A stretch of 6,971 nt of DNA, from positions 1 to 6,971 of the forward strand of contig JAEZEN010000515.1 in the NCBI GenBank assembly GCA_023433185.1, given 5' to 3'. Shown one piece after another: positions 3,293 to 6,318 of the stretch. How positions within the stretch are numbered: the stretch's first letter is position 1; the number at the start of each line of letters is the position of its first letter. Position numbers and translations under genes: made by a program. The DNA is from Pseudomonadota bacterium. GTDB lineage: Bacteria > Pseudomonadota > Alphaproteobacteria > Rhizobiales > Kaistiaceae. The notes under the pieces were generated by a model. The model worked only from the letters and a program-made list of their open reading frames with translations. It was not told the origin of the DNA and searched no databases.

Positions 3293-4570
3293 TCAGGCGC
3301 CGCCGGCTGCGTCGCGGGCCAGGGGCGTGATGTGGAGCGCCGTGATCCGGTTCCGGTTCTTGCGCAGCACCTGGAAGCGGAACCCATGGAAGGTGAAGGC
3401 CTGCCCCGGCTCCGGGATGATGCGCGCCTCGTGGATGACGAGGCCGGCGACCGTCGTCGCCTCGTCGTCGGGCAGCTGCCAGCCCATGGCGCGGTTGAGG
3501 TCGCGGAGCGGCACCGCGCCGTCGACGTTCACCGAGCCGGCGGGCTGGGGCCGCACGCCCTGGACGACGATGTCGTGCTCGTCGGAGATCTCGCCGACGA
3601 TCTCCTCGATGATGTCCTCGAGGGTGATGAGCCCCTGCACCTCGCCATATTCGTCGACCACCAGCGCGAAATGCGACTTCCGCTTGAGAAAGGCGTTGAG
3701 CTGGTCGGAAACCTCGGTGGTTTCCGGGATGAACCACGGCTTCTTGGCGATCCTGCGGATGTCGAGGAGGGTCATGTCGTCGCCGGTGCCCTTGAGGGCG
3801 CGGACGAGGTCCTTGGTGTGGACGACGCCCACGATGTTCTCGGGCTCGCCCTCCCACAGCGGAACCCGCGTGTAAGGGCTCGACAGGATGCCGTCGACGA
3901 TCTTCTCCGTCGGCTCGCCGAGATTGACGGCGTGCATGTCGGTGCGGTGGACCATGATGTCGGAAACCGCGAGTTCGCCCAGGTCGAGAAGGCCGCCGAG
4001 GCGGTCGCGGTCGCTCTTGACCACGCTGCCTTCGGCGTGGAGCAGGTCGACCTGGCCGCGGATCTCGTCGGTCGCCGAGAGCACGGTATCACCCGACCCC
4101 CCCCATCCGGTGGCGCGGAGGATGAGCCGGACGAACACCTGGACGCCGTAGACGATCGGGGAAAGGACCGTCACGAGGACGCTCACCACGGGCGCCACGC
4201 CGCGGGCGACGCGGTCGGGCGCCCCGATCGCCAGCGTCTTCGGCAGGATCTCGCCGAAGACCAGCACGAGGAGCGTCATGCCGATCGTGGCATAGGCGAC
4301 GCCGGCCTGGCCGAACAGGGTGAGGAGAACGCTGGTGGCCAGCGCCGAGGCGAGGATGTTGACGACGTTGTTGCCGAGGAGGATCGCCCCGATCAGCCGT
4401 TCGCGATCGCCGATCAGCCGGGACACGATCGCCGCGCGGCGGTCACCCGACTTCTCCAACTGATGCATGCGCGCCTTCGAGGCGGCGGTGAGCGCCGTCT
4501 CCGATCCCGAGAAGAAGGCCGACACGGCGACCAGGAGGAGGATCGCCGCGATGATGAGCCAGAGCGTCAT
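3293..4570 (-). CDS. CorC/HlyC-family (CNNM-like) membrane protein with DUF21, CBS pair and CorC_HlyC domains
   Basis: A 425-residue protein. Residues 1 to about 150 are a DUF21 membrane domain with several hydrophobic segments and the signature FFSGSETAL (19-27), GNNVVNIL (66-73) and FGEILPKTL (105-113). Residues about 200-260 and 280-335 are a CBS pair (VSDIMVHRTDM; FALVVDEYGEVQGLITLEDIIEEIVGEI). Residues about 345-420 are the CorC_HlyC domain. This family handles divalent cations, chiefly Mg2+ export or Mg2+/Co2+ homeostasis, at the inner membrane; haemolysin labels are historical. The ATG overlaps the TGA that ends the aroB frame (ATGA), with only a weak ribosome site, which implies translational coupling to aroB. 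An amber codon in aroB 95 bases earlier would disturb that. A run of eight G's (minus strand, 4104-4097) encodes part of the GWGGSG linker. Confidence 0.93.
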   Translation of the reverse strand: MTLWLIIAAILLLVAVSAFFSGSETALTAASKARMHQLEKSGDRRAAIVSRLIGDRERLIGAILLGNNVVNILASALATSVLLTLFGQAGVAYATIGMTLLVLVFGEILPKTLAIGAPDRVARGVAPVVSVLVTVLSPIVYGVQVFVRLILRATGWGGSGDTVLSATDEIRGQVDLLHAEGSVVKSDRDRLGGLLDLGELAVSDIMVHRTDMHAVNLGEPTEKIVDGILSSPYTRVPLWEGEPENIVGVVHTKDLVRALKGTGDDMTLLDIRRIAKKPWFIPETTEVSDQLNAFLKRKSHFALVVDEYGEVQGLITLEDIIEEIVGEISDEHDIVVQGVRPQPAGSVNVDGAVPLRDLNRAMGWQLPDDEATTVAGLVIHEARIIPEPGQAFTFHGFRFQVLRKNRNRITALHITPLARDAAGGA

Positions 4571-4665
4571 CGCATCTGTTCCGAGAGAAACTCCCTGACG
4601 GCGTCGACCGCTATGTCCTTGGCGATGAAGGCGCGGCCGATGCCCTTGACGAGGATGAAGGTAAG
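4567..4665 (-). pseudogene. aroB: Orphaned C-terminal tail of aroB after an in-frame amber codon
   Basis: Directly after the TAG at 4668-4666, the same frame stays open for 32 codons to a TGA at 4569-4567. It encodes a stretch beginning LTFILVKGIGRAFIAKD, which matches the conserved AroB ending (a G-K-L-x-F-x-L-x-x-G-I-G pattern after DKK). The codons are GC-rich at third positions like the rest of aroB. The final TGA overlaps the corC ATG by the usual ATGA arrangement. With the tail the protein would be 378 residues including whatever replaces the TAG, a normal size. A family Lys is expected at that codon, and AAG differs from TAG by one base. Confidence 0.85.
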
Positions 4666-5703
4666 CTAGCCGCGCGACACCTTCTTGTCCTGGGCCATCA
4701 GGTCCAGCAGCGCGTCGACACCGAAGCCGCCGCCCGGGATATCGGCGATGCGGGTCGGCAGGCCGACGTCCTTGAGGTGGGCCTCGACCCGCTTCACGTC
4801 CTCGGGCTGGCAGTGGCCGAGCTTGGCCGAGAACCGGAACGCCAGCACCATGCCGATGGCGACGGCCTCGCCATGCAGCAGCCGCCCGTCATAACCCGCC
4901 ATGGCCTCGAGGGCGTGGCCGAACGTATGGCCGAGATTGAGCAGCGCCCGGACGCCGCTCTCGCGTTCGTCGGCGGCGACGATCGCCGCCTTGGCCCGGC
5001 AGGCGGAAGCGATCGCCTGCTCGCGCTCGGGCCAGCCGGCGGCGACCGCGCGCCAGTTGGTCTCGAGCCAGGCGAAGTAGTCCGGCGCGCCGATCAGGCC
5101 GCATTTCGCCACCTCGGCATAGCCGGCATTGAACTCGCGTTCGGGCAGCGAATCGAGGATGCCGCTGTCGGCCAGAACGAAACTCGGCTGATGGAACACG
5201 CCGAGAAGGTTCTTGCCGTGGGCGGTGTTGATGCCCGTCTTGCCGCCGATCGAGGAATCGACCTGGGCGAGGAGCGTCGTCGGCAGCTGGACGAACCGGA
5301 TGCCGCGGAGCACCGTGCCGGCGGCGAAACCGGCGAGATCGCCGACCACCCCGCCGCCGAAGGCGAGCACCACGTCGTTGCGCTCGATGCGCGCTTCGAG
5401 CAGCGCCTCGATCACCGTCTCGAAGGCCGCGAAGCTCTTGGACGCCTCGCCCGGCGGCACGACGATCGAGACATGCTCGATGTCGGAGAAGTCGAGCGAT
5501 GCGGTCAACCGGTGAAGGTGGTGCTCGGCGACGGTCTCGTCGGTGACGATCGCCATCCGCGCCCCGGGCAGACGCGTCGCCAACTCGTGGCCGACCGTAT
5601 CGACGAGATCGCGGCCGATGAGGATGTCGTAGGAGCGGCTGCCCAGCTCGACATGGACCTTGGTCGGCGGCCGCCGCGGCACTTCGGGCGCTGTGTCGCT
5701 CAT
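4666..5703 (-). CDS. aroB: 3-dehydroquinate synthase, C-terminally truncated by an amber codon
   Basis: This enzyme converts DAHP to 3-dehydroquinate, the second step of the shikimate pathway, in the cytoplasm, using NAD and a divalent metal. The 345-residue frame has the NAD-binding GGGVVGDLAGF (116-126), LPTTLLAQVDSSIGGKTGIN (140-159), the metal ligands Glu197 (AEVAK), His259 (NLGHTFGHALE) and His277 (LLHGEA), plus Lys155, Lys200, Lys238, Arg252, Asn256 and His263. These correspond to active-site residues of the Aspergillus DHQ synthase domain. The DKK motif (339-341) is retained. The frame stops at TAG two codons after SR of DKKVSRG, and the normal last 32 codons follow in the same frame (see 4567-4665). 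Folding stability is therefore in doubt even though the catalytic residues are present. The start lies seven bases beyond the aroK stop, so the two genes are cotranscribed. Confidence 0.93.
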   Translation of the reverse strand: MSDTAPEVPRRPPTKVHVELGSRSYDILIGRDLVDTVGHELATRLPGARMAIVTDETVAEHHLHRLTASLDFSDIEHVSIVVPPGEASKSFAAFETVIEALLEARIERNDVVLAFGGGVVGDLAGFAAGTVLRGIRFVQLPTTLLAQVDSSIGGKTGINTAHGKNLLGVFHQPSFVLADSGILDSLPEREFNAGYAEVAKCGLIGAPDYFAWLETNWRAVAAGWPEREQAIASACRAKAAIVAADERESGVRALLNLGHTFGHALEAMAGYDGRLLHGEAVAIGMVLAFRFSAKLGHCQPEDVKRVEAHLKDVGLPTRIADIPGGGFGVDALLDLMAQDKKVSRG

Positions 5704-5709
5704 CGCCTG

Positions 5710-6318
5710 TTACACCCGTTCGGCGGGATGGGCCTCGAGCCACTCGGCAAGGGCGGCGAGGATATCGGCCATCACGATCTCGTGAGCGACGTCCCTGGAT
5801 TGCACGTGAATGTTCGCCTCCGCATAGATGGGATTGCGCGCCGCGAGGAGCCCGTCGACCGTCGCCTCGGGATCGGCCGTCTTGAGCAGCGGGCGGTTCG
5901 AGCGGCGCTTGACGCGCTGCAAGATGAGGTCGCGCTCGACCATGAGCCAGATCGACACGCCCGCGGCGGCGATCGCGGCCCGCGTCTCGGGATTGACGAA
6001 GGCGCCGCCGCCGGTCGCCAGAACCTTGGGCCGGCCATCGAGGAGGCGCTGGATCACGCGGCGCTCGCCGTCCCGGAAATAGGCCTCGCCGTGGATCTCG
6101 AAGATCTCCGGAATGCTGGCGTTGGCGGCATGCTCGATCTCGGTGTCGGCGTCGACGAAGGGCAGGCCGAGACGCGCCGCGAGCCGGCGCCCGACCGACG
6201 ACTTGCCCGCCCCCATCATTCCGACCATCACGATGCTCCGGCCGCCCAGAAGACGGGTGATCCGGGCCTGGGTTGGCTCGTCGGCTTCGAGGCTCGTCAA
6301 TTCTCGGGCTGTCGCCAT
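5710..6318 (-). CDS. aroK: Shikimate kinase
   Basis: This enzyme phosphorylates shikimate with ATP to shikimate 3-phosphate, the fifth step of aromatic amino acid biosynthesis. The 202-residue protein shows the Walker A loop GMMGAGKSS (33-41), FVDADTEIE (54-62) with the shikimate-binding Asp58, FRDGER (81-86) with Arg82, GGGAF (103-107), the lid RRSNRPLL (138-145) with Arg142, and R161 in ARNPIY. All expected residues are present. The N-terminal extension of about 25 residues before the kinase core is common in Hyphomicrobiales. AAGGG lies close before the ATG at 6318. It is the first gene of a minus-strand unit with aroB and the CorC-like gene. Confidence 0.95.
   Translation of the reverse strand: MATARELTSLEADEPTQARITRLLGGRSIVMVGMMGAGKSSVGRRLAARLGLPFVDADTEIEHAANASIPEIFEIHGEAYFRDGERRVIQRLLDGRPKVLATGGGAFVNPETRAAIAAAGVSIWLMVERDLILQRVKRRSNRPLLKTADPEATVDGLLAARNPIYAEANIHVQSRDVAHEIVMADILAALAEWLEAHPAERV

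Follow-up and report, generated by a model that had tools for sequence, protein, structure and literature searches.

The window, that is, the whole stretch of 6,971 nucleotides that was analysed, carries on its minus strand, in this order, a shikimate kinase gene (6318-5710), aroB with its ATG at 5703-5701 and a CNNM/CorC-type gene (4570-3293). The aroB frame meets a TAG at 4668-4666, continues for 32 codons and ends at a TGA (4569-4567) that overlaps the ATG of corC (4570-4568). These positions bear out what an earlier note on this DNA had described, an in-frame amber codon with an intact tail behind it and corC adjoining. The features under discussion are the following; P0001 is the first of the 120 proteins listed by a search and the 10,784-bp contig is the longer of the two that it stands for.

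4666..5703, minus strand: aroB (3-dehydroquinate synthase) up to the TAG, 345 amino acids; PF01761, PF24621 and TIGR01357 above cut-off
4666..4668, minus strand: in-frame TAG, codon 346; all 120 listed proteins and all 80 kept loci have a sense residue here
4567..4665, minus strand: AroB C-terminus, 32 codons past the TAG, and TGA; 32 of 32 residues equal to those of P0001
3293..4570, minus strand: CNNM/CorC-type transporter gene (corC); its ATG shares bases with the TGA that closes the aroB frame
5710..6318, minus strand: aroK, shikimate kinase gene, upstream of aroB; residue 66 differs from that of the 10,784-bp contig
3539..3541, minus strand: CorC codon 344, Ala in the window alone; Asp in 119 of 119 listed relatives
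3506..3508, minus strand: CorC codon 355, Leu in the window alone; Ile (97) or Val (22) in 119 of 119 listed relatives

The aroB frame and the C-terminus of the enzyme

The 345 residues encoded before the stop pass the curated cut-offs of AroB (TIGR01357; PF01761 together with PF24621), scoring 348.3 bits in TIGR01357 against a cut-off of 305. The TIGR01357 model is matched to 314 of 344, and the remaining tail, which would give the complete C-terminal end, is encoded past the stop. That tail shares 22 to 28 of its 32 residues with each of six compared relatives, for which identity over the part before the stop (345 residues) is 82-90%; judged by these residues, the 32 codons past the TAG are genuine AroB sequence.

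The 345 residues were compared with about 5.8 billion proteins, of which 8,000 were scored and the best 120 listed. The first-listed protein, P0001, has 378 amino acids and stands for two contigs, the longer one of 10,784 bp. Of its 378 residues 377 agree with the window frame; the only difference is at the position of the stop codon, where P0001 has Lys. Hence, while the window frame is broken at codon 346, P0001 is unbroken and identical elsewhere, and the earlier suggestion that the stop lies one base from a Lys codon holds. The source label '-' of P0001 marks proteins encoded by the window, but it was left unused as a sign that the database copy of the window encodes the full-length protein, given that the 3-member cluster may include the 345-residue form.

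An AlphaFold2 model of P0001 (30 sequences) has a mean pLDDT of 93.0 and matches solved DHQ synthases, with 6lla and 3zok as the best Foldseek matches and 5eks among the others. Past the position of the stop the model contains a strand (346-352), a second strand (358-364) and a terminal helix (366-377); the pLDDT is 84 for the block of residues 341-350 and 94 to 97 in the blocks from 351 on. P0001 matches 18 PDB sequences; in thirteen of them the alignment extends beyond position 346 (to 372 in 5eks and to 364 in 3zok), and the best stretches of the other five (1ujn, 4p53, 5tpr, 1kq3 and 9h4x) end before it. On the basis of the model, loss of residues 346-378 would probably leave the enzyme unfolded or inactive. 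The DKK motif located just before the stop, invariant in 30 aligned proteins and presumably with a role in substrate binding, is kept.

Relatives at the stop column and TAG as a terminator

No stop was found at the column of codon 346 among the best 120 of the 8,000 scored proteins or among the best 80 of 325 genome loci, and aroB has no internal stop in any of 11 genomes chosen from those that carry the 80 kept loci. The best 120 proteins have there K (67), R (26), Q (17), E (3), S (3), A (2), L (1) and T (1), and the best 80 loci have A (51), K (18), T (4), R (3), Q (2), S (1) and L (1). The earlier statement that Lys is the usual residue of the family agrees with the proteins and fails with the loci, where Ala prevails. 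Past this column 29 to 44 residues follow in 119 of the 120 listed proteins and 30 to 37 in all 80 loci; the remaining protein, P0005, has a single one. Relatives all ending at this codon, which had been proposed as an observation that would overturn the amber reading, are not what is seen: none of the relatives compared shares the stop.

P0005 is an AroB relative of 347 amino acids, 89% identical and encoded on a contig of 1,715 bp, whose final residues cease to resemble the family just ahead of this region; its end looks like a frameshift or an assembly break. Since these residues depart from the family, the L that P0005 contributes to the column is unreliable.

A close species was not found in the scan of genome_contigs, in which identity is 66% for the best-ranked locus and reaches at most 67% in the list, and an exact 23-base probe beside the stop gave 0 matches in viral_contigs. 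The matches that carry organism names belong mostly to Rhizobiales/Hyphomicrobiales, several of them to Bauldia, with about 66-78% identity in the three proteins. The source bacterium looks like a member of the Hyphomicrobiales.

The distance between the two genes was estimated in the best 80 loci. The aroB-corC gap is 0 to 35 nt in 58 of them, a one-base offset as in the window occurs in two and a larger gap in seven; nine loci had a split alignment that gave no usable estimate, and four gave no match. Close spacing of aroB and corC is common among the 80 loci.

Whether TAG acts as a terminator in this DNA can be read from an aldehyde dehydrogenase gene at 2-886 of the plus strand, which starts cut off by the contig start and ends with TAG (886). 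Close homologues (55-57% identical) were present in five of ten genomes searched, and all five end where the window gene does, two of the alignments stopping one residue short with one codon following; their terminators are three TAG, one TAA and one TGA. Since the gene ends at TAG at the end point of its homologues, TAG is an ordinary stop here. The open frames that hold the five homologues are 802-871 amino acids long, and ahead of the homologue the query matches a second time. Within the window there are no tRNA genes, and no Rfam family was matched at the gathering threshold.

Adjoining the end of the aldehyde dehydrogenase gene are four CRISPR-like direct repeats (904-1126), with a core of about 29 nt, a start-to-start distance of 61-62 nt and a degenerate first copy, which we take to resemble type I-E repeats. 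No cas gene was found among the seven ORFs of the window searched against Pfam. Near the repeats, a gene for a curlin-repeat protein (PF07012) occupies positions 1218-1628 of the minus strand, and its frame likewise ends in TAG.

The stop creates a CTAG tetranucleotide, which the earlier note had described as scarce in many proteobacteria. The window contains three CTAG against a mean of 4.75 in shuffled versions, and at least three were found in 171 of 200 shuffles; because the count is not unusual against the shuffles, the remark carries no weight here.

Differences between the window and its sister contigs

P0121, a CorC protein identical to that of the window, is recorded on one contig of 6,971 bp, and because the two lengths coincide the window was taken as the whole contig. 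Two CorC proteins are nearly identical to it: P0122, from a 5,418-bp contig, with two differences, and P0123, from a 10,784-bp contig, with three. The shikimate kinase of the 10,784-bp contig, P0241, has one difference from that of the window, and P0001 was assigned to this contig as its AroB on the matching length of 10,784 bp. Across aroB, corC and aroK, the 10,784-bp contig departs from the window in five of 1,005 codons. At AroB 346, CorC 344 and CorC 355 it is the window that stands apart; the sister contig does so at CorC 377, where it has His against Leu in 118 of 119 listed proteins, and at shikimate kinase 66, where it has Thr against Asn in 119 of 120; in both columns the sister itself is the exception. 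Each difference is therefore odd in one contig alone and breaks a residue, a residue pair or a sense codon that the relatives keep. The 5,418-bp contig agrees with the 10,784-bp contig at CorC 344 and 355 and with the window at 377. The two private changes of the window in corC (3506-3541, minus strand) are 11 codons apart.

Over the three genes, 302 of the 1,005 columns (30%) have one residue in at least 99% of the sequences. Of the four missense differences, three lie in such columns, and the chance of three or more doing so at random is 0.084, for which reason the clustering was graded as suggestive rather than strong. With private odd changes on both sides, both contigs look as though they contain consensus errors or unselected changes. 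The window has further rare residues (AroB 167, 209, 268 and 272; shikimate kinase 17 and 63) in common with the 10,784-bp contig; these are therefore traits of the lineage and not private.

The base changes were deduced from the sister proteins and the codons of the window, so that the visible differences are protein changes only. All five implied one-step changes are transversions; three read A-to-C in coding-strand terms, equivalent to T-to-G on the opposite strand. As two thirds of random changes are transversions and protein changes alone are visible, five out of five says little. Swaps between A and C and between G and T are given as the commonest substitutions of HiSeq (PMC3334598), which may not be the platform of this contig. 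For metagenomic Illumina data, biased substitution errors are described in which G is often the wrong base, and C rarely, in first reads (PMC4787001). Certain sequence motifs are also described as preceding Illumina errors. The change in aroB is deduced to be A/T, outside the class of A/C and G/T swaps.

About 2.1% of the single-base changes in these genes create a stop, from which the chance of one nonsense change among four to five random substitutions is about 8-10%. A scan that looks for oddities would presumably meet such stops regularly, and its selection of oddities may offset this chance.

Origin of the stop codon

The TAG is probably a sequencing or assembly (consensus) error in a short metagenome contig, and not biology. 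A base-calling or assembly slip would have put it into the contig consensus, and the organism would most likely have an ordinary full-length DHQ synthase of 378 residues with corC close behind. What is directly seen is the TAG, the intact tail, the nearly identical full-length protein and the other private changes, and from these we infer that the change arose in the data rather than in the cell. Single-base consensus errors in short metagenome contigs, the class to which the stop would belong, likewise appear as private changes at conserved sites, between contigs that are nearly identical elsewhere and free of frame decay. Sequence error had been offered earlier as one alternative, and it is now favoured by the Lys of P0001, by the lack of a stop in the 120 proteins and 80 loci and by the two private changes in corC; the readings as a truncated enzyme, as lost coupling or as suppression give way to it on this evidence. 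Weighed against an error are the A/T change in aroB, which lies outside the commonest swaps, and the chance of only about 8-10% for a nonsense change among random errors. Moreover, real strain mutations that are unselected or recent would equally look private and would equally fall at conserved sites.

A private null allele is the serious rival to the consensus error, although it is considered unlikely. It would be a real nonsense allele in a natural strain, a recent aroB null whose enzyme would be cut short and probably unstable, and which would either persist under a supply of aromatic amino acids or soon be purged. The TAG is present in the sequence, and as corC also differs from the sisters the contig could come from a distinct strain. 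The identity of the rest of the aroB frame with P0001 fits a recent event, and the lack of further decay is compatible with a recent null allele, which need not show any. However, the full-length form exists on other contigs, and the loss of the two modelled strands and the terminal helix should be costly. The companion changes in corC, moreover, stand at sites kept by 119 of 119 listed relatives, and selection would rarely pass them.

Two further explanations are both very improbable. According to one, the truncated 345-residue enzyme would work and be favoured by selection, and the coupling of corC to aroB would be lost. Retention of the DKK motif before the stop agrees with this, but none of the 120 listed proteins ends there, P0005 with its departing tail being merely near, the tail past the stop is identical to that of P0001, and most of the matched PDB sequences (13 of 18) extend beyond position 346. 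According to the other, just as hard to credit, the TAG would be decoded as an amino acid through an amber suppressor tRNA, a change of the code or programmed read-through, for which the intact frame and tail past the stop would speak; against it, TAG ends the aldehyde dehydrogenase gene where five of five close homologues end, the relatives carry sense codons at the aroB column, and neither a tRNA gene nor an Rfam match at the gathering threshold was found within the window. Least probable of all is a strain-specific amber in aroB that a suppressor would read through at some rate, with two forms of the enzyme and altered coupling to corC.

If the TAG is, as preferred here, a consensus error, its lesson is one of caution: before gene loss is read from an isolated premature stop in a short contig of a metagenome, the sister contigs need to be checked, and private changes in the neighbouring genes deserve checking as well. 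If it were real, one strain would carry a naturally occurring null allele of aroB, implying an outside supply of aromatic compounds.
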